The notes under the pieces: model-generated
Databases searched by the model: none
What the model was told of the DNA's origin: nothing
Seen by the model: only the letters and a program-made list of their open reading frames with translations
In this document: one piece after another, positions 7,955 to 45,264 of the stretch
How positions within the stretch are numbered: position 1 is the stretch's first letter
Layout: the number at the start of each line of letters is the position of its first letter
DNA from: Bacteroidales bacterium
GTDB lineage: Bacteria > Bacteroidota > Bacteroidia > Bacteroidales > F082
Direction: 5' to 3'
DNA: 46,804 nt
Assembly (NCBI GenBank): GCA_017530365.1
Contig: JAFXMK010000029.1
Coordinates: 1 to 46,804 of the forward strand
Position numbers and translations under genes: made by a program

Positions 7955-7989
7955 ACAAGAATTTAGAAGCAAGAAGTTAGAAGTAAGAA
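7955..7989 (+). repeat. Heptamer array, five units (ACAAGAA, TTTAGAA, GCAAGAA, GTTAGAA, GTAAGAA)
   Basis: Five back-to-back 7-nt units begin 2 nt after the LptF/G stop codon and end just before a T run. Each unit ends in AGAA. One of a family described in the findings. Confidence 0.85.
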
Positions 7990-7997
7990 TTTTTTAT

Positions 7998-8005
7998 TAT
8001 CTTCG
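7998..8005 (+). promoter_or_regulatory. Near-consensus -7 box TATCTTCG for the deoxynucleoside kinase gene
   Basis: One mismatch to TAnnTTTG, 23 nt before the ATG at 8029. Weaker support than the perfect boxes elsewhere in the window. Confidence 0.45.
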
Positions 8006-8028
8006 CAGATTGAAATATTCTTACCACT

Positions 8029-8640
8029 ATGCATATAGCTATCGCTGGAAATATCGGTTCAGGGAAAACCACCCTGACGCGTCTGTTAGCCAAACACTTC
8101 GGCTGGACGCCGCATTTCGAAGAAGTGGACCATAACCCTTATCTGGACAGCTTCTATGAGGACATGCAACGCTGGTCGTTCAACATCCAGATATTCTTCC
8201 TCAACAGCCGTTTCCGTCAGGTGATCGACATCCGCAATAGCGGGAAGGACGTCGTCCAGGACCGCACCATCTACGAGGATGCCATGATCTTTGCGCCCAA
8301 CCTCTATTCGATGGGGCTGATGGAGTCTCGTGACTTTGAGAACTACAAGTCGCTGTTTGAGTTGATGACGAAGTTCCTGCAGCCACCCGATCTGCTGATC
8401 TACCTTCGTGCCTCGGTTCCGACCTTGATCCGTCAGATCGCCAAGCGAAACCGTGACTACGAGCAGTCGATCAGGCTCGACTATCTGAGCAACCTCAACG
8501 ACCGTTACGAAGAATGGATCAGCGGCTACAAGGATGGCAAGCTGCTCATCATCGACATGGATAACCTTGATGTGGAGAAACCCGAGGACCTGAGCGTCAT
8601 CATTGAGAAGATCGAGGCCTCGCTGAATGGACTGTTCTGA
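8029..8640 (+). CDS. Deoxynucleoside kinase
   Basis: 203 residues of the dNK family (deoxyadenosine/deoxyguanosine kinase type), which phosphorylates salvaged deoxynucleosides at the 5' position with ATP. Visible are the P-loop GNIGSGKTT at residues 7-15, the FEEVDHNPYLDSFYEDMQRWSF substrate-site segment, the DRTIYEDAMIFA motif equivalent to DRS, and the lid arginines in RQIAKRNRDYEQ. Length is normal for the family. Substrate preference cannot be read from sequence alone. The stop overlaps the kdsB start by one base (TGATG). Confidence 0.92.
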   Translation: MHIAIAGNIGSGKTTLTRLLAKHFGWTPHFEEVDHNPYLDSFYEDMQRWSFNIQIFFLNSRFRQVIDIRNSGKDVVQDRTIYEDAMIFAPNLYSMGLMESRDFENYKSLFELMTKFLQPPDLLIYLRASVPTLIRQIAKRNRDYEQSIRLDYLSNLNDRYEEWISGYKDGKLLIIDMDNLDVEKPEDLSVIIEKIEASLNGLF

Positions 8641-9383
8641 TGAGAGTACTCGGCATCATACCTGCCCGTTACGGCTCAACGCGTTTTCCCGGCAAGCCCT
8701 TGGCCATGATCGGGAAGAAGACGATGATCCACAGGACCTATGAGCAGGTCCAGAAATCGTTGTTGGATGACGTTGCAGTGGCCACTGACGACCAGCGCAT
8801 CTTCGACGAGGTGCTGGCTTTCGGAGGCAAGGCCGTGATGACCCGTTCCGACCACAAGAGCGGCACCGACCGCTGCCGTGAGGCATTTGACTTGTTGGGA
8901 GGAGACTATGATGCTGTGGTGAACATACAAGGCGACGAGCCGTTCATCGATCCTGAGATGATCGATCAGGTGACAGACCTCATCCGTCGCGATGACACTT
9001 GTCTCGCCACACTCGCAAAAAGAATAACAGATCCTTCTATGCTTGACAATCCCAATGTCGTCAAGGTAGTCTTTGATGGTCATGGCGATGCCTTGTATTT
9101 CAGCCGTCATCCACTGCCTTTTGTGAGAGGCTGCGAGCGCAATCAATGGATCGAGAAGGCGGATTATTTCCGACATATCGGCATCTATGCCTATAAGGCC
9201 GACACCCTCCGCGCCATCGCTTCCATGCCTATGGGCCGTCTTGAACAGGCCGAATCATTGGAACAGCTTCGATGGCTCGAAAAAGGCCTGCATATCCGTG
9301 TGGCGGTCACCCAGTGCGACGATTCAATCGCCATCGATACGCCACAAGACTTGTTGAACCTCCCTCAAGATATGCTTCGATGA
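8640..9383 (+). CDS. kdsB: 3-deoxy-manno-octulosonate cytidylyltransferase
   Basis: 247 residues, full length for KdsB. Activates Kdo as CMP-Kdo for attachment to lipid A, a step needed for LPS inner core synthesis in the cytoplasm. Motifs: the N-terminal nucleotide-binding loop IPARYGSTRFPGKPL, VATDD, the NIQGDEPFIDPEMI metal-binding segment, YFSRHPLPF, HIGIYAYKADTL and LEQAESLEQLRWLE. Coupled by 1-nt and 4-nt overlaps to the kinase upstream and the HU-SPOR gene downstream, so the three are very probably one mRNA. Confidence 0.96.
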   Translation: MRVLGIIPARYGSTRFPGKPLAMIGKKTMIHRTYEQVQKSLLDDVAVATDDQRIFDEVLAFGGKAVMTRSDHKSGTDRCREAFDLLGGDYDAVVNIQGDEPFIDPEMIDQVTDLIRRDDTCLATLAKRITDPSMLDNPNVVKVVFDGHGDALYFSRHPLPFVRGCERNQWIEKADYFRHIGIYAYKADTLRAIASMPMGRLEQAESLEQLRWLEKGLHIRVAVTQCDDSIAIDTPQDLLNLPQDMLR

Positions 9384-10510
9384 ACAGAATATACGATGCC
9401 ATAGCAGCCCTTCTTTATGATCACGATGCCGTGATCGTGCCCGGTTTGGGCGCTTTTTTACGTCATGACGAGGGGGCTAAGGTCAACGTCATCACTAACC
9501 AGTTTGAGAGACCTTCTTCCACCATCAGCTTCGATTCCCAGCAACGTGAGGAAAACGATTTGCTAGTCCATTATTTGGTGGCGCATGACAATATCAGTGA
9601 AGAAGATGCCCGACAGCAACTGGCGATGTTTGTCTCCGACTGTTACACCAAGCTCAAATCAGGTGAGGTGGTGACTTTCCCTGAGGTGGGCGCTATAGCT
9701 TTCAACGGCAATCAGGAACTGGTTTTTGAAGCGGTTGAAACTTCCAATTTCAACGCTGATGCCTTTGGCCTCAGTGACTTGAATCCACAACCCTTGTTTG
9801 GCGGCAGCCGACAAGATGACTGGAAGACTCGGGTGGCCGCCCAGATCAAAGATCAGAACACCCCCATGACTGTTGATGAGAAATCCGTCCATCAGGACAT
9901 GGGTGACGAGGATAACTATCGTAAGGGACGTTGGAAAAGGGTGTTGTCAGCCGCTTTTTGGGCGGTCCTGTGCGTCTTGGCCGTTGTGTGCATCCTCTAC
10001 TTTTTGGAGGTGATACATTTGGATATTCCTATCAAGCCAAAACCAGTGCCGCAAGTCGTTGTTGACGCACCTGAACCTGATTCGGCGATACTGGCTGAGA
10101 TGGTCTCCTACTATCATGAACCCGTGACAGCACCTATCGATGCGTGCGATACCATAGGGGTGATAGACACCATTGAGGTGATAGATACTATTCAAGTGAC
10201 AGAAACTGTCCAAGAGACAGTTCCCGACGTTGTTGTCAATCCTGTTGACGAAACTGTTGCCAAGGCCATTCTGCCATACGCGGAGCTGTTGCCTTATTCT
10301 GTCATTGCAGGCTGCTTCTCACAACAGGCCAACGCCGAGAACTATCTTACTCCAATTCAGGAGCAGGGATACCCGGGAGCCTTCCTCATGCAGAGGGGCT
10401 CGATGTATTATGTGTGTTTCGGCCAATACGCGACGATCGAGGAAGCTAAGACGGCCCTTGCCGATATCAAAGCCAATGCAAACAACAAAGCATGGATTCT
10501 GACCAAATAA
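9380..10510 (+). CDS. HU-like (CCDC81-type) domains plus membrane helix plus SPOR domain
   Basis: 376 residues. The N-terminal about 150 residues look like the paired bacterial HU-CCDC81 domains (IAALLYDHDAVIVPGLGAFL and the VVTFPEVGAIAF region). A single membrane helix follows at about residues 188-212, then an acidic proline-rich linker with repeated DTI(E/Q)V motifs. A C-terminal SPOR domain starts near residue 302 (LPYSVIAGCFSQQANAENYL). SPOR domains bind denuded peptidoglycan at division sites, so the protein probably links the cytoplasm to septal wall. ATG at 9380 overlaps the kdsB stop (ATGA); a longer frame upstream only reads through kdsB. Confidence 0.85.
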   Translation: MNRIYDAIAALLYDHDAVIVPGLGAFLRHDEGAKVNVITNQFERPSSTISFDSQQREENDLLVHYLVAHDNISEEDARQQLAMFVSDCYTKLKSGEVVTFPEVGAIAFNGNQELVFEAVETSNFNADAFGLSDLNPQPLFGGSRQDDWKTRVAAQIKDQNTPMTVDEKSVHQDMGDEDNYRKGRWKRVLSAAFWAVLCVLAVVCILYFLEVIHLDIPIKPKPVPQVVVDAPEPDSAILAEMVSYYHEPVTAPIDACDTIGVIDTIEVIDTIQVTETVQETVPDVVVNPVDETVAKAILPYAELLPYSVIAGCFSQQANAENYLTPIQEQGYPGAFLMQRGSMYYVCFGQYATIEEAKTALADIKANANNKAWILTK

Positions 10511-10517
10511 ACCCACC

Positions 10518-11207
10518 ATGAGCAAGAAAAACAAACTGCAGAAATTCGAGGAGAACAGGTCGTTCGACAACCTGTTCCAATACTCATACGAACGCATCAT
10601 GGAAGAGGGCTTCCCCTTGCAAGGAAAATGGCATTCCGACTTCTTCCATAACGACAACCCCATCGTGTTGGAACTCGGCTGCGGCAAGGGTGAATACACC
10701 GTTGGTCTTGCCAGAGCCCATCGCGACATCAACTATATCGGGGTTGACATCAAGGGTGCCCGTATGTGGCGCGGATTGACACAAGCCCGTGAAGAAGGGC
10801 TGACCAATGTGGCTTTCATCCGCACCCGCATTGACCAGATCGAACATTTCTTCGCTCCCGATGAAGTCAGCGAGATATGGGTCACCTTCCCCGATCCCCA
10901 TCCTGGCGAGGGTGAACGCAACGCCAGGCATCGGCTTACCTCACCCGAGTTTCTGGAACGCTACCGCAAAATCGTCCGACCCGACGGCATCCTGAACCTC
11001 AAGACCGATAGCCCCATCATGTATGAGTTCACGTTGCATGAGGTGATCGAGAAACAAGGTCTGCCTTTGCTGTATGCTACCAACGATCTTTATGCCAATG
11101 ACGATGAGTTGGAAGTCAAGACGATACGGACTTTCTATGAGCAGATGTGGCTCGATCAAGGGCTGACGATTAAGTATTTGAGATTTAAGATAAGAGATAA
11201 AAGATAA
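10518..11207 (+). CDS. trmB: tRNA (guanine(46)-N7)-methyltransferase
   Basis: 229 residues. Class I SAM-dependent methyltransferase that makes m7G46 in the tRNA variable loop. Visible are the SAM-binding motif I (VLELGCGKGEYTVGLA), NYIGVDIKGARMW, IWVTFPDPHPGEGERNARHRL (catalytic and tRNA-binding region) and the TDSPIMYEF segment. The last six residues (KIRDKR) and the TAA stop are encoded inside a heptamer repeat array, so the C-terminal end may be a repeat-derived tail. Confidence 0.95.
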   Translation: MSKKNKLQKFEENRSFDNLFQYSYERIMEEGFPLQGKWHSDFFHNDNPIVLELGCGKGEYTVGLARAHRDINYIGVDIKGARMWRGLTQAREEGLTNVAFIRTRIDQIEHFFAPDEVSEIWVTFPDPHPGEGERNARHRLTSPEFLERYRKIVRPDGILNLKTDSPIMYEFTLHEVIEKQGLPLLYATNDLYANDDELEVKTIRTFYEQMWLDQGLTIKYLRFKIRDKR

Positions 11208-11209
11208 AA
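11182..11209 (+). repeat. Heptamer array, GATTTAA then GATAAGA then GATAAAA twice
   Basis: Four exact 7-nt units spanning the trmB stop codon (11205-11207) and ending 3 nt before the next ATG. A partial unit, GTTATG, contains that start codon. Confidence 0.85.
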
Positions 11210-11212
11210 GTT

Positions 11213-12718
11213 ATGTTTACAGAAGACAAACAATTTTACATTGCGCATTGCGATAATGGACCGATCAACATGATCGGCAAGATGGCCAACCGTCATGGTT
11301 TGATTTGTGGCGCCACGGGTACGGGTAAGACCGTTACCTTGCAGGTCATCGCTGAATCGTTCAGCCAGGCTGGCGTTCCTTGTTTCATGGCCGATATGAA
11401 GGGCGACCTCTCCGGCATCAGCCAACCCGGTAAGATGAGCGGCTTCATCGAGAAACGTTGCCCGGAGTTCGGCATTGAGAACCCGCAGTTCAAGGGGATG
11501 CCGACGCGTTTCTTCGACGTGTTTGGGGAGCAGGGACATCCGCTGAGAGCCACCATTTCCGAGATGGGACCGCAGCTGCTGGCCCGCCTTCTCAACCTCA
11601 ATGAGACCCAGACGGGCGTCCTGAACATCGTGTTCAAGATTGCCGACGACCGTGGCTTGTTGCTGATCGACATGAAGGACCTCCGCTTGATGCTTGACTA
11701 CGTGGCCAAGAATGCCAGGGAGTTCACCACCACTTATGGCACCATCACTTCGATGAGCGTGGGTGCCATCCAACGTGCCTTGTTGGCCTTGGAGGCCGAG
11801 GGTGCCGACCAGTTCTTTGGCGAGCCTTCCTTCAACGTGTATGACTTTCTGCAGACCGAGCAGGGGCAGGGCATCATGAACGTGCTGGCTGCCGATAAGC
11901 TGATGATGAATCCGAAGCTCTATTCCACCTTCCTGCTGTGGCTTTTGAGTGAGCTCTACACCCAGCTGCCCGAGGTGGGCGACCTGGAGTTGCCCAAGCT
12001 GATCTTCTTCTTCGATGAGGCTCACATGCTCTTTAAGGACACATCGAAGGCTTTGGTTGATAAGATCGAGCAGGTCATCCGCCTGGTGCGTTCCAAGGGC
12101 GTGGGTGTGTATTTCATCACCCAGAGCCCTGACGACATCCCAGAGGCCATTGCCGGACAACTCGGCAACCGAGTGTTGCATGGACTGAGGGCTTATACCC
12201 CTAAGGAACAAAAGACGGTGAAGGCTGCTGCCCAAACTTTCCGCACCAACCCCAACTTCAATACCGAAGCAGCTATCCTTGAACTCGGCACAGGCGAGGC
12301 CTTGGTGTCGTTTCTTGACGAAAAAGGTGCTCCCAACATTGTAGAACGTGCCAAGATCCTGTTCCCCTTAAGCCAAATCGGCGCCATCTCTGACGAGCAG
12401 CGGGAGACCATCATCCGCCAGTCGCGCCTTTACGGCCAGTACGAAAAGACCTTCGACCGCGAGAGTGCCTACGAGATGCTAGTGGAGGAACAAAAGCAGG
12501 CTGAAAAACGCGCCCAAAAGGAGGCTGAAGAAGAGGAGAAACGCAAGGCCAAGGAAGCCAAGGAGAAAGAGAAAGCCAAGTCTTCCAAGTCATCGAGCAA
12601 GAAGAAATCGACAGGACGAAAGGCGATTGAAAAGACTATCAACACCACAGCGACGACCTTTGGACGTCAGCTCGGGAAGAGCATCTTCAGATCCATCTTG
12701 GGAGGAATCTTTAAGTAG
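11213..12718 (+). CDS. HerA-like ATPase (DUF853/YjgR family)
   Basis: 501 residues, the same length as E. coli YjgR. It has a FtsK/HerA-type ATPase fold with Walker A GATGTGKT at residues 33-40, a MKGDLSGISQPGK segment, Walker B FFFDEAHMLF near residue 267, and an arginine-finger-like RLVRSKGVGVYFITQSP motif. The C-terminal about 60 residues are a lysine- and glutamate-rich coiled region (EEEEKRKAKEAKEKEKAKSS) followed by a conserved RQLGKSIFRSILGG end. YjgR function is not settled. No NurA nuclease partner is nearby. Confidence 0.88.
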   Translation: MFTEDKQFYIAHCDNGPINMIGKMANRHGLICGATGTGKTVTLQVIAESFSQAGVPCFMADMKGDLSGISQPGKMSGFIEKRCPEFGIENPQFKGMPTRFFDVFGEQGHPLRATISEMGPQLLARLLNLNETQTGVLNIVFKIADDRGLLLIDMKDLRLMLDYVAKNAREFTTTYGTITSMSVGAIQRALLALEAEGADQFFGEPSFNVYDFLQTEQGQGIMNVLAADKLMMNPKLYSTFLLWLLSELYTQLPEVGDLELPKLIFFFDEAHMLFKDTSKALVDKIEQVIRLVRSKGVGVYFITQSPDDIPEAIAGQLGNRVLHGLRAYTPKEQKTVKAAAQTFRTNPNFNTEAAILELGTGEALVSFLDEKGAPNIVERAKILFPLSQIGAISDEQRETIIRQSRLYGQYEKTFDRESAYEMLVEEQKQAEKRAQKEAEEEEKRKAKEAKEKEKAKSSKSSSKKKSTGRKAIEKTINTTATTFGRQLGKSIFRSILGGIFK

Positions 12719-12752
12719 TGGAAAACTGAAAGTGGAAAGTTTTCCGTTTTCC
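12718..12752. repeat. Heptamer array folded on itself between convergent genes
   Basis: Units GTGGAAA, ACTGAAA, GTGGAAA followed by GTTTTCC twice. The last two are complementary to the GGAAAA-containing units, so the RNA can form a hairpin on either strand. It overlaps the stop of the HerA-like gene and ends 2 nt before the pcm stop, and probably acts as a bidirectional terminator. Confidence 0.7.
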
Positions 12753-12754
12753 AC

Positions 12755-13478: not shown

Positions 13479-14483
13479 ATGTTGAAAATAGGTGTTTTGG
13501 GAGCCGGCCATCTGGGCAAGATCCATATCAAATGCATCAAGCAGATCGACCGTTATGAGCTCGTCGGTTTTTATGATCCCGATGCCGCTACTGCCAAGGC
13601 GGTGGAGGCGGAGATGGGGGTCCGGTGTTTCGACACCTTGGAGGTCTTGATTGATGCGGTGGAGGTGGTGGACATCGTCACCCCAACGGTGCAGCATTTT
13701 GCCTGTGCCTCCAAGGCTTTGCAGCGCCGTCGACATGTCTTCATCGAGAAGCCTATCGTGGCGACGCCCGACGAGGCCGCCAAGTTGGTGAAACTGGCCG
13801 ATGAAGCCGGCGTTAAGGTACAGGTGGGTCATGTGGAGCGTTTCAATCCTGCGTTCATCGCCGCCGAGCCTTTCATCAAGGAACCCAAGTTCATCGAGGC
13901 ACATCGTCTGGCCCTCTTCAACCCCAGAGGGACGGATGTCCCAGTGGTACTTGACTTGATGGTGCACGATCTCGACATCCTTACCACCATCATCGACTCG
14001 CCCGTCACCAGTGTCAGCGCCTGTGGCGTGGCCATTGTCAGCCCTACTCCCGACATCACCAACGCACGCATCGAGTTCGAAAACGGCTCGGTGGCCAATC
14101 TTACCGCCAGCCGTATCTCGCTCAAGAATATGCGCAAGACTCGCATCTTCCAAAAAGATGCCTATATCACCGTGGACTTCCTGGAAAAGAAGTCGGAGAT
14201 CGCCCGTATCCACGACCACGAGACTTCGGGTTATCCTTACTCTTTGACTCTTGATTTGGCGGATGGCGAAACCCGACAAATCACGCTTGAGAAGTTGGAA
14301 ATACAGCCGCTCAACGCTATTCAGAAGGAATTGGAGAGTTTCTATGATAGCATTATCCACAACACTACGCCCGTGGTTTCCATCCAAGACGGGGTGAAGG
14401 TGCTTAATTTGGCGTATGAGATTTTGAAGAAGGAAGAAGAAAGGAGTAAGAAGCAAGAAAACCTACCTAGTGGAAATAAATAA
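13479..14483 (+). CDS. Gfo/Idh/MocA family NAD(P)-dependent oxidoreductase
   Basis: 334 residues. N-terminal Rossmann fold with GAGHLG at residues 8-13, the catalytic EKP at 90-92 (VFIEKPIV), QVGHVERFNP and the DLMVHDLD active-site motif near 159-166. The family oxidises or reduces sugars and related compounds; the substrate here is unknown. Neighbouring polysaccharide genes make a nucleotide-sugar or sugar role plausible but unproven. The last 20 or so residues are highly charged and partly encoded by a heptamer array, so this tail is probably not part of the fold. Confidence 0.88.
   Translation: MLKIGVLGAGHLGKIHIKCIKQIDRYELVGFYDPDAATAKAVEAEMGVRCFDTLEVLIDAVEVVDIVTPTVQHFACASKALQRRRHVFIEKPIVATPDEAAKLVKLADEAGVKVQVGHVERFNPAFIAAEPFIKEPKFIEAHRLALFNPRGTDVPVVLDLMVHDLDILTTIIDSPVTSVSACGVAIVSPTPDITNARIEFENGSVANLTASRISLKNMRKTRIFQKDAYITVDFLEKKSEIARIHDHETSGYPYSLTLDLADGETRQITLEKLEIQPLNAIQKELESFYDSIIHNTTPVVSIQDGVKVLNLAYEILKKEEERSKKQENLPSGNK
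14432..14459 (+). repeat. Heptamer array inside the 3' end of a coding region
   Basis: Units GGAAGAA, GAAAGGA, GTAAGAA, GCAAGAA occupy codons near the C-terminus of the oxidoreductase gene, 24 nt before its stop. The purine-rich words resemble the array at 7955-7989. Confidence 0.6.
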
Positions 14484-15462: not shown

Positions 15463-16886
15463 AACAAAAACGCAAACTGCCTTTCCTGTACGGCATTATT
15501 GACTGGCTGCTTTCTGTCATAGCTTGGACGCTGTTCTACTATTTCCGGAAGACTTACGAGATTCCTGGTGCCAATATGTGGCAACGTTTCGGTGTTGAGT
15601 TCCACGACAAGAGTTTTTGGTTCGCTGTCGCCGTTATTCCAGTTTGCTGGGTGATTTTATATGGTATCACAGGTGCCTATCAGAGCGTGTATTCCAAATC
15701 GCGCTTGAAAGAGCTGACTCAGACTTTCTTCATCACGCTGTTGGGTGTGACGGTATTGTTCTTTGTGGCGATTCTCGATGACCAGATCCTTACCTACAAG
15801 ATGTACTACCAGTCGTTCATCACGCTGTTCGCCCTTCAGTTTGGCTTAATATATATTGGCCGACTGGTCATCACGAGTGTGGTGAAGCGACGCATCAAGT
15901 CGGGTAAGATTTGGTTCAACACCTTGATCGTGGGAAGCAACGACAATGCCATCAAGTTGTACAACGAAATTGCGGAGCCACAGAAACCCACTGGCCAGCG
16001 TTTTGTGGGTTTTGTCAATGTGTATGACAAGCCGTCGTACGGGTTGAGTGAGTACCTGCCGCATCTGGGCTCGGTGAACGACTTGGTGGAGATCGTAAAG
16101 CAGTATAATGTAGAGGAGGTGATCATTGCCATTGAGCGTTCCGAGAAGGATTGCATGAATGCTATCATGCCTGTGATTAACCAGACGGAGGCCGAAGTGG
16201 AGATCATCCCTGAGATGCAGGATCTGGTCTTTGGCAACGTAAGGCAGTCGGCTATCTGGCGCACGCCGTTAGTACAAGTCAGTCCTGATCTGATGCCGAT
16301 CTGGCAGCGTGTCATCAAGCGCTTGTTCGACATCGTAGTGTCCATCATCGTGCTGATTGTGCTGTCACCGGTATATCTCATCACTGCCATCATCGTCAAG
16401 GCCACCTCTCCGGGACCTGTGTTTTATGTCCAGGAACGTATCGGGAAGAACGGCAGGCCTTTCAAGATGGCCAAATTCCGCAGCATGCGTGTTGACGCTG
16501 AAGCAAATTGCACGCCACAACTTTCAAGTGACGACGATCCCCGTATCACCAAGTTCGGTAAGTTCATGCGTAAGGTGCGTCTCGACGAGATTCCCCAGTT
16601 CTGGACGGTGCTGAAGGGCGACATGTCCATCGTGGGCTATCGTCCCGAGCGCAAGTACTACATAGACCAGATTGTGGAGCGTGCTCCGTATTACAACATG
16701 CTGTTGTTGGTGAAGCCAGGCATCACCAGCTGGGGTGAAGTGAAGTTCGGTTATGCTGAGAATGTGGATGAGATGATCGAACGCCTGAAGTACGACATCC
16801 TCTACATTGAGAATGTAAGCATCAGCCTGGATCTTAAGATCTTGATTTACACAGTCCTCATCGTCATCCAAGGGAGAGGGAAGTGA
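15459..16886 (+). CDS. Exopolysaccharide polyprenyl glycosylphosphotransferase
   Basis: 475 residues. Transfers a sugar-1-phosphate from a nucleotide sugar to undecaprenyl phosphate, the first membrane step of surface polysaccharide synthesis. Four N-terminal membrane helices lead to a CoA-binding-like Rossmann domain (NTLIVGSNDNAIKLYNEI). A fifth helix (RLFDIVVSIIVLIVLSPVY) precedes the bacterial sugar transferase domain with ERIGKNGRPFKMAKFRSM, VRLDEIPQFWTVLKGDMS and VGYRPER. This is the WcaJ/WbaP layout. The sugar cannot be predicted. No glycan cluster follows it. Confidence 0.93.
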   Translation: MKQKRKLPFLYGIIDWLLSVIAWTLFYYFRKTYEIPGANMWQRFGVEFHDKSFWFAVAVIPVCWVILYGITGAYQSVYSKSRLKELTQTFFITLLGVTVLFFVAILDDQILTYKMYYQSFITLFALQFGLIYIGRLVITSVVKRRIKSGKIWFNTLIVGSNDNAIKLYNEIAEPQKPTGQRFVGFVNVYDKPSYGLSEYLPHLGSVNDLVEIVKQYNVEEVIIAIERSEKDCMNAIMPVINQTEAEVEIIPEMQDLVFGNVRQSAIWRTPLVQVSPDLMPIWQRVIKRLFDIVVSIIVLIVLSPVYLITAIIVKATSPGPVFYVQERIGKNGRPFKMAKFRSMRVDAEANCTPQLSSDDDPRITKFGKFMRKVRLDEIPQFWTVLKGDMSIVGYRPERKYYIDQIVERAPYYNMLLLVKPGITSWGEVKFGYAENVDEMIERLKYDILYIENVSISLDLKILIYTVLIVIQGRGK

Positions 16887-16909
16887 GAGGTGAGAGGTGA
16901 GAGGTGCTG
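16882..16909 (+). repeat. Heptamer array AGTGAGA, GGTGAGA twice, GGTGCTG
   Basis: Four 7-nt units that include the glycosylphosphotransferase stop (TGA at 16884-16886). It faces a second array on the other strand 17 nt away. Confidence 0.75.
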
Positions 16910-16926
16910 CTATCAAACAGGAAAAC

Positions 16927-16954
16927 CTCTAACCTTTAACCTTTAACCTCTAAC
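16927..16954 (-). repeat. Heptamer array GTTAGAG, GTTAAAG twice, GTTAGAG (minus-strand sense)
   Basis: Four exact units immediately after the TAG stop of the DUF4294 gene. Its CCTCT ends are complementary to the AGAGG of the opposing array, so the two may pair as a bidirectional terminator. Confidence 0.85.
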
Positions 16955-17620
16955 CTAAATCTGTCCTCGTTCAAGCAGCGTGGCGATGATGTCGATCTCT
17001 TCGTCTTCCTTGTTGTTCTTCGGGTCGAATTCGGTCTTGAGGTTGTAGCCCCATAGGCGTGCGAATCCTTGATAGAAGAAGGCTCTGAGTTTGCCGCGCA
17101 GTTCCTGGACAAGCTTATAGGAGGTGTTGCCCGTCTCGCGGTCGATGAGGCGGATGAGGATGGCGCCTTGTGAAAAGGTCAGTTTCTTCAGTTCCTCTGT
17201 ATATTGGTCGCTGATTTCTTGTTCAGCTTGTTTCATCATGCGGCGGCGTTCCGATTCATTAGAGACGTCGGCCAGCAAGGTGTCGAACTCTTGCAGTTTG
17301 GCGCTTGCCAGTTTGGCGTAAGGATACACTTTGCGGACATTGCTGACGAGGCGGCGTCCTTGTCGGGTATCGGTGATGGCGTAGTAGCGGCCCATGAGGT
17401 CGATATCGACTTCGGGGAGATAGACCATGAGGATGGTATCTTGGCCGTTAATATGGCCATATACCACGTGGAGTTGATCTTGGGCGGTGGGCGTTTGTTG
17501 CTGAATCGAGGCTTGTGGATGAGACAATTTCATTTTCACTCCCTTGCCCTTGGTAATGAATTGGCTGAATCCTGAAGTGGTGACCATCATGAGTATGATG
17601 GCGAGTATGATCTTTTTCAT
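16955..17620 (-). CDS. DUF4294 exported protein
   Basis: 221 residues. A signal peptide (MKKIILAIILMMVTTSGFSQ) is followed by a DUF4294-type domain: GHINGQDTILMVYLPEVDI, RYYAITDTRQGRRLVSNVRKVYPYAKLA, then KLTFSQGAILIRLIDRETGNTSYKLVQELRG and ARLWGYNLKTEFDP. The tail is acidic. The family is widespread in Bacteroidota and its function is unknown. It lies 43 nt downstream of clpX on the same strand and is probably part of the tig-clpP-clpX transcript. Confidence 0.85.
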   Translation of the reverse strand: MKKIILAIILMMVTTSGFSQFITKGKGVKMKLSHPQASIQQQTPTAQDQLHVVYGHINGQDTILMVYLPEVDIDLMGRYYAITDTRQGRRLVSNVRKVYPYAKLASAKLQEFDTLLADVSNESERRRMMKQAEQEISDQYTEELKKLTFSQGAILIRLIDRETGNTSYKLVQELRGKLRAFFYQGFARLWGYNLKTEFDPKNNKEDEEIDIIATLLERGQI

Positions 17621-19588: not shown

Positions 19589-19622
19589 GTTGGCAGTTGT
19601 TCAGTTATTCAGTTAGCAGTTA
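19589..19622 (-). repeat. AACTG-type repeat array between tig and clpP (7- and 8-nt units)
   Basis: Minus-strand units TAACTGC, TAACTGAA twice, CAACTGC, then a broken CAACTT unit. It includes the tig stop and ends 4 nt before the clpP start. The words match arrays at ruvX-def and atpA-atpG. Confidence 0.75.
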
Positions 19623-21002
19623 TTTTTTCTTGGAGGTTTTTTTGGTCTCCTTCTTGGTTTCAGCCTCTAGGGACTTGATGAAGTCATCGTATGTTTGGTC
19701 GGTGTAGTTGATGCTTATCTTGGTCTTGAGGAAGTTGGTCATCTTGACGTCGGCGAGTTGGTTCTTGACGTTGTTGATCTGTTCCTCGTTCTTGAGATAG
19801 TTGTCAACGATCTTGTCGAGACGAGCCTTCATGTCATCTTCCATGGTGTTGTAGTCTAGGCCGGGGAAGATCTGGCTGCGGAGGAAGCCCTTGACTTCGT
19901 CGTCGGTGATGGCGAGGTCCATGTTTTCCTTCACGATGCTATCTTCGATGAGCTGCCAGCGGAGGCCTTTGCTGTAGTTCTCAGCGTAGTTCTTCTCGAT
20001 GTCTTCCACGGAGAGCTTGCCTTGGTTGTTTTCGAAGATCCAGCGCTTCAGGAATTCATCAGGTAGTGCGAAAGGCGTGTTGTCAACGAGGGCGTCGATC
20101 ATCTTGGTAAAGAGGATGCGGTCAGTCTCGTTGGTATATTGTTTCTCCATCTCTTCTTTGACGCTGGCGCGGAAGGCATCCACGTCTTTCAGCTCTTGGC
20201 TGGGGAAGATCTTCTTGAAGAACTCTTCGTTGAGTTCGGGTTTTTCTTCGTGGCGGATGTCGTCAATGATGATGTTGTAGTCGCTATCGGCGGGGGCGTC
20301 ATTGCCAAGGACTTTGGCAGCTTTTTCCTGTCCACCGAGGATGGTGGCGAAGTTGATGATGAACTCAGCACCGGTGGTCTTGCCAACGAGTTTCTTCTTG
20401 TTGGTCTTGGTCTTGATGTCTTTCAGGTCGAGGACGACGTAATCTTTCTTGAAGCCGTCTTCCAGCTCCTTGCCGTCTTCAGCCTCGCGGACTTTCAGTT
20501 CCAGGACGTCGTTTTCGCCGACGGTCTCGGGATGTGAGACCTCGGGGTTGCGTTCGACGATTTCCTCGATGGTTTTGTCGATGGCGGCGTCATCGGCGAT
20601 GATATGTGCGAAATCGACTTTGGCCTTGGTGTAATCGACTTTGATTTCGGGACGGATGGCGGCTTCGAAGAAGAAGTCAAGCGAGTCCTGCTTGTCGAAA
20701 TCGACGGGCTGCTGGTGATCGGGGTCGCTGAGAGGGAATCCGATCAGGTCGAGTTTGTTTTCAAGGATATAATTGTTGAGTGTCTCGGAGACAAGGGTGT
20801 TGAGCACCTCGATGGTGGCTTGAGCGCCGTACATCTTCTTGATCATGCCGAAAGGCACCATGCCAGGACGGAAGCCCGGGACCTGGGCTTTGTGCTGGAG
20901 TTTGTTCAGCTCTTTCTTTACCTGTGGCTCATAGTCTTCTTTGAGCACGTTGATTTTGATGGAGATCAGTTGTTCTCCCTTCTGGGCTTGTGTTGTGTTC
21001 AT
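19620..21002 (-). CDS. tig: Trigger factor
   Basis: 460 residues. Ribosome-bound chaperone for nascent chains. The ribosome-binding loop has GFRPGMVP at residues 43-50, as in the family (GFRxGxxP). The middle PPIase-like domain is divergent and reduced, as is common in Bacteroidota. A long helical C-terminal arm domain ends in a lysine- and threonine-rich tail (ETKKETKKTSKKK). ATG at 21002 is chosen; a longer open frame upstream runs through a tRNA gene. It follows tRNA-Leu by 38 nt with no hairpin between, so both may share one promoter. Confidence 0.93.
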   Translation of the reverse strand: MNTTQAQKGEQLISIKINVLKEDYEPQVKKELNKLQHKAQVPGFRPGMVPFGMIKKMYGAQATIEVLNTLVSETLNNYILENKLDLIGFPLSDPDHQQPVDFDKQDSLDFFFEAAIRPEIKVDYTKAKVDFAHIIADDAAIDKTIEEIVERNPEVSHPETVGENDVLELKVREAEDGKELEDGFKKDYVVLDLKDIKTKTNKKKLVGKTTGAEFIINFATILGGQEKAAKVLGNDAPADSDYNIIIDDIRHEEKPELNEEFFKKIFPSQELKDVDAFRASVKEEMEKQYTNETDRILFTKMIDALVDNTPFALPDEFLKRWIFENNQGKLSVEDIEKNYAENYSKGLRWQLIEDSIVKENMDLAITDDEVKGFLRSQIFPGLDYNTMEDDMKARLDKIVDNYLKNEEQINNVKNQLADVKMTNFLKTKISINYTDQTYDDFIKSLEAETKKETKKTSKKK

Positions 21003-21040: not shown

Positions 21041-21122
21041 TGCGGATGAAGGGACTCGAACCCTTACTCCTCTCAGAACCAGATCCTAAGTCTGGCGCGT
21101 CTACCAATTCCGCCACACCCGC
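21041..21122 (-). tRNA. tRNA-Leu (anticodon UAG)
   Basis: A cloverleaf can be drawn: acceptor stem GCGGGTG/CATCCGC with one G-U pair, anticodon stem CCAGA/TCTGG around the loop CTTAGGA (anticodon TAG), the long variable arm typical of leucine tRNA, and a T-arm with GGTTCGAGTCC. The discriminator is A73. CCA is not encoded. Confidence 0.95.
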
Positions 21123-25476: not shown

Positions 25477-25905
25477 ATGGCAAGAATAATGGCTATCGAT
25501 TTAGGTCGTAAACGATGTGGTGTGGCGGTCACGGATCCGCTGCAGATCATCGCTAACGGACTTACCACCGTTGAGAGCGGTAAGCTGGCCGACTGGGTGG
25601 TGGACTACGTGGAAAAGGAAGAGGTGGAAGCCATCGTCATTGGTGAACCGAAGGACATGCACAACAATCCTTCTGACTGCTCCAAATACATCGAGCCGCT
25701 GGTGAACCGCCTGCGCAAGCTGCTACCCGACATGAAGATCGTCCGTTACGACGAACGCTTTACCTCGGTGATGGCCCACCAAACCATGATCGACGCTGGT
25801 TTGAAAAAGAAACAACGTCAAGATAAGGCTTTGGTGGATACCGTGGCAGCGACAATCTTGCTCCAGTCCTACATGGAGAGCGTAAAACTGAAAACTGAAA
25901 ACTGA
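25477..25905 (+). CDS. ruvX: Holliday junction resolvase-like / pre-16S rRNA nuclease
   Basis: 142 residues (YqgF family). RNase H-like fold with the first catalytic aspartate in MAIDLGRKRCGVAVTDP, VIGEPKDMHN, the YDERFTSVMAH glutamate motif, and KDALVD-type KQRQDKALVDTVAATILLQ with the last acidic residue. Trims the 5' end of 16S rRNA in E. coli. The final residues (KLKTEN) and the stop are encoded by an AAAACTG repeat array. Confidence 0.93.
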   Translation: MARIMAIDLGRKRCGVAVTDPLQIIANGLTTVESGKLADWVVDYVEKEEVEAIVIGEPKDMHNNPSDCSKYIEPLVNRLRKLLPDMKIVRYDERFTSVMAHQTMIDAGLKKKQRQDKALVDTVAATILLQSYMESVKLKTEN

Positions 25906-25934
25906 TAACTGATCAACTGAACAACTGCAAACTG
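25884..25934 (+). repeat. AACTG-type heptamer array between ruvX and def
   Basis: AAAACTG three times, ATAACTG, two 8-nt variants ending CAACTG, then CAAACTG. It starts inside ruvX, includes its stop (25903-25905) and ends 2 nt before the def ATG. Confidence 0.85.
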
Positions 25935-26503: not shown

Positions 26504-26508
26504 GTTTA

Positions 26509-26536
26509 GATAAGAGATAAAAGATAAAAGATAAGA
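26509..26536 (+). repeat. Heptamer array GATAAGA, GATAAAA twice, GATAAGA
   Basis: Four exact units 5 nt after the def stop. A fifth partial unit GATATG contains the start codon of the next gene. The words are the same as those at trmB and in the atp operon. Confidence 0.88.
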
Positions 26537-26539
26537 GAT

Positions 26540-27073
26540 ATGAAATGGAGTAATTTATTTATTGCCGTAATGGCAATCTTTGTGATTGCGGGTTGCAACC
26601 GTACCGTGAAAACCACGGGTGACGATGTCAAGAAGGCTGAGGAAGCCATGTTCAATGCGGACATGACCACCAACAAAGACGCTGTCGCAGGCGCCGTCGC
26701 CACCTTTACCAAGTATGTTGAAGACAATCCGGAAGCTGCCGATGCCGCTGATGTGCTGTTCAAGGCCGTCGAGGTGTCCGTCAACACCAAACAGGATCCA
26801 CAACAAAGTATTGGCTTGGTTAACAAGCTGGTGGCCGACTATCCCAAGTTCGACAAGAATGCTGTCGCCTTGTTCATGCTGGCCACCTTCGTCTATGATG
26901 AACAGCTGCACGATCTCGACAAGGCTCGTGAGACCTATCAACAAATCATCGACAATTATCCTGACAATCCTTTCGCCAAAGACGCCGAAATCTCCATCAC
27001 CCAGCTGGGCATGACGCCTGAAGAGCTGATCAAGATGTTTGAGGAGAGAGAGGAGCAGGAGAGTGAGGAGTGA
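26540..27073 (+). CDS. TPR-like lipoprotein
   Basis: 177 residues. Lipoprotein signal peptide with lipobox IAGC (C19), then helical repeats of tetratricopeptide type (AVATFTKYVEDNPEAADAAD, DLDKARETYQQIIDNYPDNP), as in outer-membrane assembly or cell-division lipoproteins. The specific role is unknown. The acidic tail (EEREEQESEE) is largely encoded by a GAGTGAG repeat. It converges on metK. Confidence 0.85.
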   Translation: MKWSNLFIAVMAIFVIAGCNRTVKTTGDDVKKAEEAMFNADMTTNKDAVAGAVATFTKYVEDNPEAADAADVLFKAVEVSVNTKQDPQQSIGLVNKLVADYPKFDKNAVALFMLATFVYDEQLHDLDKARETYQQIIDNYPDNPFAKDAEISITQLGMTPEELIKMFEEREEQESEE

Positions 27074-27081
27074 GGAGTGAG
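27061..27081 (+). repeat. Heptamer array, GAGTGAG three times
   Basis: Three exact units spanning the lipoprotein stop (27071-27073), followed by a diverged GAATAGG unit. Confidence 0.8.
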
Positions 27082-27099
27082 GAATAGGCGTCAGGTGCG

Positions 27100-28496: not shown

Positions 28497-28505
28497 TTGC
28501 GGCGG

Positions 28506-33071: not shown

Positions 33072-33087
33072 TTTCTACCGAGCTTTA

Positions 33088-33100
33088 ACCCCTACGGGGT
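33088..33100 (-). other. Small hairpin ACCCC-TAC-GGGGT
   Basis: 5-bp perfect arms and a 3-nt loop between atpG and the phosphopantetheinyl transferase gene. It may be a weak processing or attenuation signal. Confidence 0.35.
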
Positions 33101-33101: not shown

Positions 33102-33115
33102 TTCTTACTCCTAAC
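33102..33115 (-). repeat. Short heptamer pair GTTAGGA, GTAAGAA after atpG
   Basis: Two 7-nt units (minus sense) that include the atpG TAG stop. A minimal member of the heptamer family. Confidence 0.5.
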
Positions 33116-33983: not shown

Positions 33984-33985
33984 GG

Positions 33986-34020
33986 GCAGTTGGCAGTTAA
34001 CAGTTGGCAGTTAGCAGTTG
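33986..34020 (-). repeat. Heptamer array CAACTGC/TAACTGC, five exact units
   Basis: Minus-strand units CAACTGC, TAACTGC, CAACTGT, TAACTGC, CAACTGC. The first three encode the last residues of AtpA (QLLTANC) and its stop (33997-33999). The array ends 2 nt before the atpG ATG. Confidence 0.9.
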
Positions 34021-36868: not shown

Positions 36869-36885
36869 GATTTAATGATTTTAAG

Positions 36886-36920
36886 ATTTAACTTTTAACT
36901 TTTATCTTTTATCTTTTCAC
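36886..36920 (-). repeat. Heptamer array GTGAAAA, GATAAAA twice, GTTAAAA, GTTAAAT
   Basis: Five exact units on the minus strand. They encode the last residues of AtpB (EKIKDKS) and its stop at 36895-36897. Confidence 0.9.
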
Positions 36921-37986
36921 TTTCCTCCCCCTCCTGCGCCATCCCGATAAAGATCGAGCTCAGCATTGTGAACACGTAAGCTTGGATGTAGGCCACTAGG
37001 CATTCCAAGGCGGTCATGAAGACCATCATGAAGATGGAAATGATAGAGGTCGCACCGCCCATGCCAGCACCGTACATGCCTCCGATGATGAAGATCAGGG
37101 CCATGAGCACCATGATGATGATGTGGCCGGCCAGGATGTTGGCGAACAGACGGATCATCAAGGCGAAGGGCTTGGTGAGCGTTGACACGAGTTCTATGAT
37201 AGGCATCAAGGGGATGGGGAATTTCAAGAACATGGGCACGTCGGGCCAGAGGATATCCTTCCAATAGTGGCGGTTGCCGAAGATGTTGACGGCGACGTAG
37301 GTGCAGAGAGCCAGCACCAAGGTAATGCTCAGGTTGCCCGTGACGTTGGCGCCGAAGGGGAAGAAGGGGATGAGCCCGAAGAGGTTACAGAAGAAGATGA
37401 AGAAGAACACCGTCAGCAGGTAAGGGGCGAATTTTGGCACCTTGCTCTTGGGGATGGAGGGGCTAATGATGCCGTCGAGCACCATGTAGGTGAGCCACTC
37501 CACCAGACCTTGGTATTTGGTGGGTGTGCCTTCGGGGTTTTTCTTGTATTTCTTTGCGGCAGGCAGGAAGAAGGCCAGCATGAAGCCGCAGACCAGGAAG
37601 ATGCCAAAGGCGTTCTTGGTGAACGACAGGTCGAAAGGCCGCTTGATCTCGCCAGAAGGGGTGACTTCCATCAGTTTTCCAGGGTGTTTTGGGTCGGTCA
37701 TCGGGGCGATGTAGAAGCCTTGGTAGGTCTCGCCTTCCGCTAGCTCGCAGACGTGTTTTGAAGAGAAGACGTGCCATCCGGTCTCCTTGCTGTGGACGAT
37801 GACAGGCAGCCAAACGCAGACGGGCTTGCCCTTGATCTCGGTGATGTGGAAGCAGTAGCCGTCACTGGTGTGGCCGAAGATGAACGACTTCACGTCGAGC
37901 GACTCCTTCTCTTCGGCATGCAACGTCCCGATGCCGACAAGTGCCAGCAACAGGAGGAGGGTAATATGCCGAAGGAGGTTCTTCAT
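36895..37986 (-). CDS. atpB: ATP synthase a subunit
   Basis: 363 residues, longer than E. coli because of a signal peptide (MKNLLRHITLLLLLALVGIGTLHA) and about 100 extra periplasmic residues. The membrane part has five or six helices with the essential arginine in MIRLFANILAGHIIIM and the C-terminal LVAYIQAYVFTMLSSIFI. The tail EKIKDKS is repeat-encoded. It overlaps the upstream small membrane gene by 4 nt. Confidence 0.95.
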   Translation of the reverse strand: MKNLLRHITLLLLLALVGIGTLHAEEKESLDVKSFIFGHTSDGYCFHITEIKGKPVCVWLPVIVHSKETGWHVFSSKHVCELAEGETYQGFYIAPMTDPKHPGKLMEVTPSGEIKRPFDLSFTKNAFGIFLVCGFMLAFFLPAAKKYKKNPEGTPTKYQGLVEWLTYMVLDGIISPSIPKSKVPKFAPYLLTVFFFIFFCNLFGLIPFFPFGANVTGNLSITLVLALCTYVAVNIFGNRHYWKDILWPDVPMFLKFPIPLMPIIELVSTLTKPFALMIRLFANILAGHIIIMVLMALIFIIGGMYGAGMGGATSIISIFMMVFMTALECLVAYIQAYVFTMLSSIFIGMAQEGEESEKIKDKS

Positions 37987-38366
37987 TGTTTGAGACGTTT
38001 CAGATAATCCATGAAGCTATAGGTCTCTACAATCAGTCCGAGCAGATAGGCGATGGCAGTGATGAGTACGAAGGCCCTGGCACCTTGCTTGACGAGGACG
38101 ATGTAAAGCACCAGCATGACGATGGTAAGCAGCATCTTAATGCCTTTGTAGAGGTAGAACCATCCTTGCTTGTTGACCTGTGCGTCAAGGTTTTTGACCA
38201 TCAGCGGACAATAGAGCGCACCCAGGATCATGTAAAGATTGGGCGCAGTGACCATCCAGTTGTTCCACCATTCCTTCTGGCTGAAGAAACACAACAGCAC
38301 TCCCACCATCACGATGTCAACGATCAGGAACAGCGCCAAATAATATGTTGATTTATTCTTTTTCAA
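37983..38366 (-). CDS. Small four-helix membrane protein in the atp operon (AtpI/AtpZ-position)
   Basis: 127 residues with about four hydrophobic helices (YYLALFLIVDIVMVGVLLCFF, LYMILGALYCPLM, MLLTIVMLVLYIVLV, FVLITAIAYLLGLIVETY). It sits where other bacteria carry atpI, which helps c-ring assembly. Similar function is inference from position; I see no sequence identity to AtpI. It starts at TTG inside a heptamer array and overlaps atpB (ATGA). Confidence 0.8.
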   Translation of the reverse strand: MKKNKSTYYLALFLIVDIVMVGVLLCFFSQKEWWNNWMVTAPNLYMILGALYCPLMVKNLDAQVNKQGWFYLYKGIKMLLTIVMLVLYIVLVKQGARAFVLITAIAYLLGLIVETYSFMDYLKRLKQ

Positions 38367-38388
38367 CTTTTATCTTTTATCTCTTATC
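38361..38388 (-). repeat. Heptamer array GATAAGA, GATAAAA twice, GTTGAAA
   Basis: Four exact units, minus sense. The first supplies the atpC stop (38384-38386) and the last contains the TTG start of the next gene. Confidence 0.88.
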
Positions 38389-38621
38389 TCTCCGCACATA
38401 TAATGACCTGATTCCCGTGTTGCTCACAAAATCCTCCCTTGATGTCGAACTCCCGTTTCTCGCCGTCGCATTCGGTAATCACCACTTTGCCAGCTTCCAA
38501 TATCGCCACGATGGCGGCATGGTGCTCCAGCATGGTGAAGGGCCCTTGTTCACTGGGCACCGTCACCGCGGTGGCTTCGCCTTTATAAAGGCTCTTTTCC
38601 GGTGTGATTATTTCAGTTTTC

Positions 38622-38623
<2 letters not shown>
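38384..38623 (-). CDS. atpC: ATP synthase epsilon subunit (short form)
   Basis: 79 residues. Only the N-terminal beta-sandwich is present (EIITPEKSLYKGEATAVTVPSEQGPFTMLEHHAAIVAILEAGKVVI). The C-terminal two-helix domain that inhibits ATP hydrolysis in E. coli is absent. A short AtpC is usual in Bacteroidota. It starts at TTG within a heptamer array. Confidence 0.93.
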
Positions 38624-40235
<1,612 letters not shown>

Positions 40236-40282: not shown

Positions 40283-40324
40283 TTTTGACTTCCGTCTTCT
40301 GTCTTTCGACTTCCGACTTCTGTC
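40283..40324 (-). repeat. Heptamer array GACAGAA/GTCGGAA type, six exact units
   Basis: Minus-strand units GACAGAA, GTCGGAA, GTCGAAA, GACAGAA, GACGGAA, GTCAAAA, between the small gene stop and its terminator. Confidence 0.9.
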
Positions 40325-40331
40325 TTCTTCC

Positions 40332-40583
40332 TTATTTCTCGTTTCTCTTCTTCAGGGCGTAAGCTGCGCCGAAGCCGATGAGCAGGAGAGCGCCGCCAGT
40401 GAGCGGAGCGTCAGCGTTACCGGTGCCACCGTGACCTGGGGTGCCAGGAAAACCGCCACCTTTCATCATGCCTTCACCGCGAGTTTGTTCAGCCTCTTGG
40501 CCATATTTGAACAAACCGCCTTGAGCGTAAGCGCCAATACCCATTCCGAGAACGATTGCAATAGCTAAAACAAGTTTTTTCAT
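40332..40583 (-). CDS. Small exported protein with C-terminal membrane-anchor signal, copy 1
   Basis: 83 residues. Signal peptide (MKKLVLAIAIVLGMGIGAYAQ), conserved GGLFKYGQE, glycine-rich middle, then ADAPLTGG, a hydrophobic helix (ALLLIGFGAAYAL) and a basic end (KKRNEK). Motif, helix and basic cluster in that order resemble tripartite C-terminal sorting signals, but PLTGG is not a sortase site I know in Gram-negatives. Very similar to the 45261-45512 product. ATG 40583 is chosen at the signal peptide, 44 nt after a TAATTTTG box. Function unknown. Confidence 0.85.
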   Translation of the reverse strand: MKKLVLAIAIVLGMGIGAYAQGGLFKYGQEAEQTRGEGMMKGGGFPGTPGHGGTGNADAPLTGGALLLIGFGAAYALKKRNEK

Positions 40584-40627
40584 TTTGTTTATGATTTTAT
40601 TTGTTACTTTTCGATTCAAATCGGCTG

Positions 40628-40635
40628 CAAAATTA
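40628..40635 (-). promoter_or_regulatory. -7 box TAATTTTG of small protein copy 1
   Basis: TAnnTTTG match between the stop of the large protein gene and the small gene, so the small gene can be transcribed on its own. Confidence 0.6.
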
Positions 40636-40674
40636 CAACAATTTTTGAAACCTGCAACTTTTTTTTCGATTTTT

Positions 40675-45075: not shown

Positions 45076-45133
45076 GGGTTAATTGTTTGTTTTCTTTTGG
45101 GTTTATAATTATTAGGTTTACTTCTGTTTGGCG

Positions 45134-45147
45134 GTGTAAATTTACAC
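45134..45147. promoter_or_regulatory. Perfect 14-bp palindrome GTGTAAATTTACAC
   Basis: It lies 59 nt upstream of the large T9SS gene. Its centre (TAAATTTA) is one base from the TAnnTTTG -7 box, so it may be an operator overlapping the promoter. No matching regulator was recognised. Confidence 0.4.
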
Positions 45148-45181
45148 TTTTTGGGGGATTAGGCAATTTATTTTATTAAAA

Positions 45182-45213
45182 AAGCAATCCACCCAATTGA
45201 GGGTGGATTGCTT
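45182..45213 (-). terminator. Intrinsic terminator, small-protein cassette 2
   Basis: Arms AAGCAATCCACCC and GGGTGGATTGCTT (13 bp) with a 6-nt loop, then TTTAATAAAAT on the minus strand. Homologous in position to the terminator at 40250-40280. Confidence 0.88.
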
Positions 45214-45222
45214 CGTGGGAGG

Positions 45223-45264
45223 TTCAGTCTTCTGTCTTCCGACTTCCGACTTCTGGTTTCTTAC
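45223..45264 (-). repeat. Heptamer array GTCGGAA type, six exact units
   Basis: Minus-strand units GTAAGAA, ACCAGAA, GTCGGAA twice, GACAGAA, GACTGAA. The first includes the TAA stop of the small gene. Same words as the array at 40283-40324. Confidence 0.9.

Follow-up and report, generated by a model that had tools for sequence, protein, structure and literature searches.

Heptanucleotide arrays at the gene ends of a Bacteroidales genome

The window analysed here, a stretch of 46,804 nucleotides from a Bacteroidales bacterium (GenBank assembly GCA_017530365.1, contig JAFXMK010000029.1) and part of contig C27 of the source genome, contains an ATP synthase gene cluster and, at gene ends within this cluster and elsewhere, tandem arrays of 7-nt units (Table 1). 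Most of these arrays lie over or directly behind stop codons, are predominantly purine-rich in the sense of the gene that they follow, and keep stride and place between related species as the repeated word turns over. With a tandem array defined as a maximal segment of identity at one fixed lag, accepted at a score of at least 10, the window holds 14 arrays of period 7 versus a mean of 0.26 and a maximum of 2 in 100 local shuffles. Runs of at least 10 matches number 9 at lag 7, 3 and 4 at lags 14 and 21, and at most 1 at any other lag up to 30. An earlier note on this DNA had listed 17 array positions, of which 14 carry a period-7 array at this score, whereas position 12718 is weak, 19589 is a mixed 7/8-nt array and 33102 holds about two units.

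The source genome is a 2.67-Mb draft in 50 contigs (88% complete), and the sample examined comprises 840,109 bases or 31% of it, window included, in which a simple dicodon script called 642 genes with 92% coding sequence, stops being surer than starts. The closest relatives are uncultured Bacteroidales or Bacteroidia metagenome assemblies, mostly from the ruminant gut. RUG14627 (G040), with 94% identity in ATP synthase gamma, is the sister species, of which about 160 kb can be aligned with the sample, and RGIG7248 (G041), with 82% identity, a more distant species. The genus sample consists of stretches from 22 genomes (430 kb); by overlap, G020 is the same genome as G041, locus L010 is counted with G041, and the overlapping locus L221 is left out of the count for the other genus stretches.

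Table 1. Heptanucleotide arrays and other features in the window; gene coordinates are those of the window (TRF, Tandem Repeats Finder; sister, RUG14627)
Feature	Position	Strand	Gene context and remarks	Relatives
AAGAAGT-type array	7965..7989	+	after stop of gene 6870-7952; score 10.5; TRF 7956-7992	array also in sister
AAGATAA array	11176..11213	+	over stop of 10518-11207, extends to start of 11213-12718	7-nt indel relative to sister
Weak two-unit GTGGAAA stretch	12739..12752	+	near stop of 11213-12718; score 7, excluded from array counts	
GAAGAAG/AAGAAGC array	14426..14459	+	encodes C-terminal tail of 13497-14483	sister ortholog stops earlier, without array
GTGAGAG array	16872..16906	+	over stop of 15459-16886; left arm of facing pair	7-nt indel relative to sister
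AGGTTAR array	16924..16956	-	over stop of 16955-17620 (minus strand); right arm of facing pair	
Mixed 7/8-nt CAGTTATT array	19594..19624	-	between 18910-19584 and 19620-21002; TRF period 8; no period-7 array under the scoring used	
AAAACTG array	25884..25913, degenerating to 25935	+	over stop of 25522-25905	AGATAAA words in L010 instead of AAAACTG
AGATAAR array	26508..26546	+	directly after stop of 25973-26503	array in both sister and L010
GAGTGAG array	27061..27083	+	over stop of 26570-27073; convergent junction	longer array in sister
About two units	33102			array in sister
AACTGCY array	33985..34019	-	encodes tail of 33997-35571, presumed alpha (ATP synthase alpha/beta family), extends to start of 33111-33983 (gamma); families at this alpha-gamma junction confirmed	21-nt difference from sister; different word in L010
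AAGATAA/AAGTTAA array	36880..36923	-	over stop of 36895-37986 (ATP synthase A chain)	28-nt difference from sister
AGATAAR array	38361..38391	-	upstream of 37983-38339, within ATP synthase gene cluster	
GAGATAA array	38611..38664	-	over stop of 38652-40160, presumed beta (ATP synthase alpha/beta family)	missing from sister, present in L010
GAAGACA/GAAGTCG array	40289..40347	-	over stop of 40332-40544	
GAAGTCG/GAAGACA array	45223..45261	-	at stop of 45261-45473	
SAM-II riboswitch (at gathering score)	28441-28500	-		
tRNA gene	21041-21122	-		
tRNA gene	21189-21262	-		

The segments 40332-40957 and 45261-45832 on the minus strand have matching arrays followed by near-identical sequence, both match the same end of locus L009, and they look like a duplicated short gene with its neighbour.

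Excess of period 7 and its spread

The lag-7 excess suspected from the window holds across the sample, where 121 arrays of period 7 compare with 0.6 on average in five Markov shuffles. Among the other periods from 4 to 24 that are not multiples of 7, period 8 reaches 17 arrays and all others at most 9, and the 80 and 30 arrays at periods 14 and 21 are accounted for by both being multiples of 7. The median length is 4.6 units, the maximum 10.7, and a scan with Rfam found no family at the arrays. In the stretches of the genus sample, 54 arrays have period 7, compared to 24 for period 8 and 5 for period 6. Twelve genomes from other families of the order (291 kb) have 4 arrays, 3 of them on one 5-kb contig, and Flavobacteriia (58 loci, 1.12 Mb) have 26 arrays of period 7 versus 14 of period 6.

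Anchoring at the stop codon

Of the 121 arrays, 83 are situated at gene junctions and 38 within called genes, the latter having been overlooked in the earlier note. Their position relative to stop codons is non-random: 65 of the 83 located at junctions overlap a stop codon or directly adjoin it, with 9.3 expected from random intergenic placement, and a further 11 lie within 10 nt of one (4.4 expected), which gives 76 arrays at stops in total. Arrays are scarce at divergent junctions (4 of 105), compared to 56 of 429 junctions between co-directional genes and 16 of 101 between convergent ones. Of the 72 co-directional junctions with a single array, 51 leave 10 nt or more of the spacer free, and in 45 of these the array lies within 5 nt of the stop, compared to 7.7 expected under uniform placement. 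When only spacers with at least 60 nt to spare are considered and placement in the 50 nt preceding the start is disallowed, still 20 of 24 arrays are at the stop versus 4.9 expected, so that the anchor is the stop codon and not the next start. Single-array convergent junctions offer room for this comparison in just 5 cases, all 5 of them at the stop versus 2.1 expected. Arrays are likewise at stops in 44 of 52 cases in the sister and in 44 of 66 in G041; anchoring is less strong in the other genus stretches (38 of 71, with 32 arrays neither at a stop nor in a gene). That an array offers stops in all three reading frames, as had been proposed from the window, is true on the purine strand of 89 of the 164 stop-anchored arrays in the source genome, sister and G041 and does not hold for the remainder.

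Purine orientation, words and facing pairs

At stops, 69 of the 76 arrays of the source genome are purine-rich in the sense of the gene, and the bias is found at co-directional junctions on both strands (20/22 and 29/33) as well as at convergent ones (20/21). Together with the sister and G041 the ratio is 142 to 22 (142/164), and in the other genus stretches 34 to 4 (34/38). Stretches behind stops that carry no array are unbiased, with a mean purine content of 0.52 (n = 279). Within genes, no bias like that at stops is seen, purine and pyrimidine sense occurring at 17:21 in the source genome, 1:2 in the sister and 6:10 in G041. As stop arrays with stops in none or one of the frames on the purine strand are still oriented 20 to 1, the supply of stop codons alone does not explain the orientation. 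Arrays of the opposite sense, on the other hand, are more frequent if stops are present on that strand as well (16/66 versus 6/98 otherwise, three genomes), which suggests that a stop backup may act as a filter on arrays. All four features read originally from the window, namely the strict 7-nt period, the change of words, the purine-rich sense and the anchoring at stops, are thus found across the sample of the source genome and in other species of the genus, but anchoring and purine sense do not hold in the loci of the Flavobacteriia.

The words of the source genome fall into several classes (AAGAAGT, AGGAGTK, AGAGGTK, AARAGAT, AAGACAG, AAAACGG and others), which in other species of the genus are partly the same and partly different. 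Loci L012, L013, L016 and L017 lie on the same contigs as G004, G008, G010 and G023, and the figure for word identity between species in small sets, being inflated by this overlap, is left out of account. In words with two pyrimidines these are adjacent in 37 of 39 (13 of 15 distinct words), with one third expected, and in words with three pyrimidines these are contiguous in 2 of 10, with one fifth expected. Stop triplets occur in 57 of 76 words of the source genome versus 47.0 for shuffled letters; the distinct words of the genus show no such excess (35/52 versus 34.7), so that stop-rich words, being confined in their excess to the source genome, were discarded as a rule. A Rho-site, with a GA in each unit and thus UC in antisense, was also considered and rejected, as GA is not clearly enriched either in the source genome (64/76 versus 59.3) or among the distinct genus words (36/52 versus 33.9 for shuffled letters).

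Two neighbouring arrays of opposite sense make up a facing pair; all 11 such pairs in the source genome and all 6 in the sister are purine-first, as are 10 of 15 in the other genus stretches. Among these, the words of the two arms differ at no more than one position in 7, 4 and 6 pairs, respectively, where about 14-15% would be expected. Such pairs should form predicted hairpins, for which a function and a by-product of inverted copying have both to be considered. At the alpha-gamma ATP synthase junction, several species have facing pairs of differing words as judged by eye, in a comparison of relatives that left out junction 38391-38621.

Palindromic elements are found at the same kind of site. 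A dispersed REP (repetitive extragenic palindromic)-like palindrome with GTCATTGCGAGG is located at gene ends and sometimes between two array arms (L009 equivalent of 33059-33071; sister contig S1 around 19650-19800; source contigs C9 around 18360 and C5 around 56580), and a hairpin element of the form ACCGAGCTT(T/G)AA(C/G)CCCTACGGG(G/C) adjoins arrays at about 33072-33100 in the window, 2250-2290 on sister contig S1 and 18740 on source contig C22. At the equivalents of the source array sites C1:50709, C22:75159 and C22:36434, G041 carries another palindrome, of the GGGGCGGACC...GGTCCGCCCC type, in place of the arrays, as if gene ends were landing sites common to several kinds of repeat.

Change between related species

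Comparison of orthologous junctions, which the earlier note had pointed to, reveals changes both in unit number and in word. Between source genome and sister, with 19 of 131 junctions dropped as unalignable, 14 of 24 indels that touch arrays are multiples of 7. The same is true of 1 of 12 indels outside the arrays of array-bearing junctions and of 3 of 32 where the junction has no array. Where the source genome has a junction array the sister has one in 27 of 33 cases, compared to 3 of 98 where it has none; the corresponding figures for G041 are 14 of 25 and 6 of 91. Words at such shared junctions have at most one mismatch in 21 of 27 pairs with the sister (shuffled partners 0.15) and in 7 of 14 with G041 (shuffled partners 0.20). 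When the ortholog has no array or another word, the end of the protein is unchanged in 67 of 84 comparisons, longer in 8 and shorter in 9, although not all comparisons are independent as some pairs are counted from both sides.

Arrays inside genes

Arrays are also present in frame within conserved enzymes, in variable parts of the proteins. Ten array-bearing proteins of the source genome were chosen, of which one crossed a stretch border, and all nine others match conserved Pfam families, namely S41 peptidase, Mur ligase, fumarate reductase flavoprotein, phosphoenolpyruvate-utilising enzyme, semialdehyde dehydrogenase, NqrB/RnfD, GH20, ApbE and sulfatase. G041 has arrays in a SufS-type cysteine desulfurase (Protein Data Bank match 5e-136) and in isoleucyl-tRNA synthetase (IleRS; 2e-250), where the array-coded stretches align weakly or with gaps to the best solved homolog and are probably surface loops. 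Altogether 57 in-gene arrays occur in the source genome, sister and G041, 26 of which have a comparable ortholog. Several are insertions relative to the ortholog. Two in-gene arrays, at C22:105201 and C22:117974, are common to source genome and sister without change in length. In ApbE the array is of equal length and reads in pyrimidine sense in the source genome and, going by the residues, in purine sense in G041. Overwriting without change in length was considered as a rule and not retained in view of the insertions, with one clean case in a SufS-like gene of source genome and sister. The protein encoded at C22:13492-16818 has array-coded stretches at two places, where its sister ortholog has longer inserts containing palindromes.

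Relation to described heptamer repeats

Heptanucleotide repeats are reportedly preferred among the short tandemly repeated repetitive sequences (STRR) of heterocystous cyanobacteria and the long simple sequence repeats (LSSR), in work attributed to Mazel in 1990 and Mrazek in 2007, with polymerase slippage said to have been proposed as their origin. Anchoring at stops and replacement of the word are not described for STRR and LSSR in the passages that cite them (PMC4692102; PMC4679880). The present arrays share with these repeats head-to-tail 7-nt units well above chance, copy numbers that vary by whole units between relatives, and a mainly intergenic location.

Paludibacter propionicigenes belongs to the Bacteroidales. 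The earlier statement that no equivalent is described in this order is nearly right, its limits being set by two sets of TAACTGA repeats in this species (PMC4679880) and by similar placement rules in Xanthomonas and Nostoc (PMC4692102). According to the passages of PMC4679880 on these repeats, TAACTGA occurs as direct repeats in Beggiatoaceae, Cyanobacteria and five Bacteroidetes, and resembles the present arrays in its 7-nt unit, two to six copies, intergenic location, stops in all frames and occasional position over stop codons. Unlike them, it consists of one word and is mostly found right before start codons, related heptamers being seldom repeated in the same genome (PMC4679880). In the source sample TAACTGA is found in 45 single copies without any exact tandem pair; it is the consensus word of 1 of the 76 stop arrays, its reverse complement is that of one array in genome G022, and the arrays adjoin the stop, not the next start, in the 45 of 51 roomy spacers mentioned above.

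The heptamer arrays of Xanthomonas and Nostoc, GGGAATC and GGGGA(C/T)T, are G-rich and form quadruplexes (PMC4692102). As described there, they are similar to the present ones with respect to a 7-nt unit close behind the upstream open reading frame, a purine- or G-rich coding strand, a preference for four copies, under-representation between divergent genes, inverted pairs, and occurrence at the same junctions of two species with varying length and sequence (PMC4692102). They differ, as far as the passages on them go, in that here many words are used and replaced between species and arrays extend over the stop itself and into coding stretches. The placement is thus shared, whereas the G-tract of at least three in the unit that would allow quadruplexes is not: GGG is present on the purine strand of 22 of the 121 arrays and absent from the leading words AAGAAGT, AGGAGTT and AAAAGAT. 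As the quadruplex feature of the one set (PMC4692102) and the word feature of the other (PMC4679880) fail, the arrays are classed here as a variant of heptanucleotide tandem repeats outside both. In the trnL intron of Nostoc, the P6b stem likewise contains degenerate heptanucleotide repeats with varying copy number, whose copies pair into a hairpin; these differ in forming one intron stem and not a dispersed gene-end population (PMC3488679). Unlike REP and BIME (bacterial interspersed mosaic element) palindromes, most arrays are one-sided, and the 11 facing pairs among 148 arrays of the source genome, which form inverted repeats, vary in their words. A literature search joining heptameric tandem repeats, Bacteroidetes and intergenic regions found no paper, and the passages of PMC4060949 retrieved hold nothing specific on heptamers in Bacteroidetes. 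Compared with the heptamer systems as described in the passages cited, many words, anchoring at the stop, replacement of the word in place and arrays in coding stretches are new.

Origin of the arrays

Length steps of 7 nt, a place that is kept while words turn over, anchoring at stops, a purine sense linked to the gene, and in-frame arrays in variable protein stretches are all observed. With a probability of roughly 0.55, the arrays are slippage-driven heptanucleotide repeats of 7-nt stride in one genus of Bacteroidales, tolerated mainly at the 3' ends of genes and, less certainly, subject to a transcription-linked purine bias. Arrays would grow and be homogenised by slippage in replication or repair with a preferred stride of 7 nt, and selection would tolerate them where little is lost, that is behind stops, between convergent genes and in protein loops. 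The orientation, together with the start of the arrays where the last ribosome leaves the transcript, suggests a transcription-linked bias beginning at this point, a step of the proposed mechanism that we hold with lower confidence; putative RNA:DNA hybrids, favoured by a purine-rich transcript, may serve as an example. Copying between arrays and a mutational preference are candidate routes by which many loci could come to have words in common.

Several observations weigh against this explanation. Seven of the 22 genus genomes sampled are without any array in their stretch, and in the Flavobacteriia anchoring fails (5 of 26 arrays at stops) with stop arrays of 1 purine to 4 pyrimidine sense. 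Of the 24 indels that touch arrays, 10 do not correspond to whole 7-nt units. Whole words are replaced at a junction, for example at 25884 and 33985 of the window relative to L010 and at C22:116796 even relative to the sister. Slippage alone is insufficient to account for a word identity between loci of the source genome of 4.6% versus 0.7% for shuffled letters, nor does it explain why the two arms match to within one mismatch in 17 of all 32 facing pairs.

It is possible, if doubtful, that array words are copied into other arrays in a genome-wide concerted evolution in which stride and place are inherited and the word is overwritten, including in the coding sequence of SufS and IleRS. A dedicated copying system, in which a reverse transcriptase or other templated synthesis writes the arrays from a template that changes between lineages, could produce the recurrence of few word classes at many loci and the array of another word at the same stop in relatives; it is nevertheless very improbable. 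Of 24 genus genomes, 15 have a match to RVT_1; the array-bearing genomes G010 and G019 have none, although they are incomplete (84% and 79%). Visual inspection of alignments of source genome and sister, without a formal test, showed neither a shared flank nor a target duplication. With this patchy occurrence, reverse transcriptase was set aside as a universal partner. Chance or an assembly artefact, which might be thought of as the source genome is a draft of 50 contigs and its nearest relatives are metagenome assemblies, has a negligible probability and is already refuted by the array counts, and arrays occur at the same junctions in three separate assemblies with 7-nt differences.

An element acting at the RNA level, selected as a signal or protein-binding site at the 3' end of the mRNA, with facing pairs as hairpin terminators between convergent genes, is unlikely on balance. 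The purine sense kept in arrays with few stop frames, the purine-first facing pairs of source genome and sister with words matching above chance, the hairpin-like inverted pairs that several species show, on visual inspection, at the alpha-gamma junction and the persistence of arrays at the same junctions are in its favour; however, words differ between species at the same junction, coding-stretch arrays have either orientation, just 56 of 429 co-directional junctions have an array, and no feature of the words was found beyond composition and the contiguous pyrimidine block. Improbable, too, is the earlier suggestion that arrays are kept as backup since the unit offers stops in all frames if the native stop is lost. 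Anchoring at stops, the excess of stop triplets in the words of the source genome, the stop-carrying tendency of opposite-sense arrays and a tail longer than that of the ortholog in 8 of 84 comparisons accord with it, but the distinct genus words lack this excess, stops in three frames are present in little more than half of the arrays, the protein end mostly remains unchanged, orientation is kept with stops in none or one frame, and arrays exist in frame inside enzymes, so that stop backup is not supported as the driver.

The finding bears on why simple repeats of prokaryotes prefer a 7-nt unit, for which the idea of a polymerase footprint is quoted in PMC4692102 and PMC4679880. That many words follow a single stride, placement rule and orientation indicates that the stride is separable from the sequence and from quadruplex formation, and the rule of stop anchoring and purine sense points to a link with transcription and translation and not to the word. 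Judging from the arrays in enzymes, the process at work may write coding sequence as well and, if the copying of words between arrays is true, new protein sequence of essential enzymes would be written from a non-coding heptamer vocabulary.

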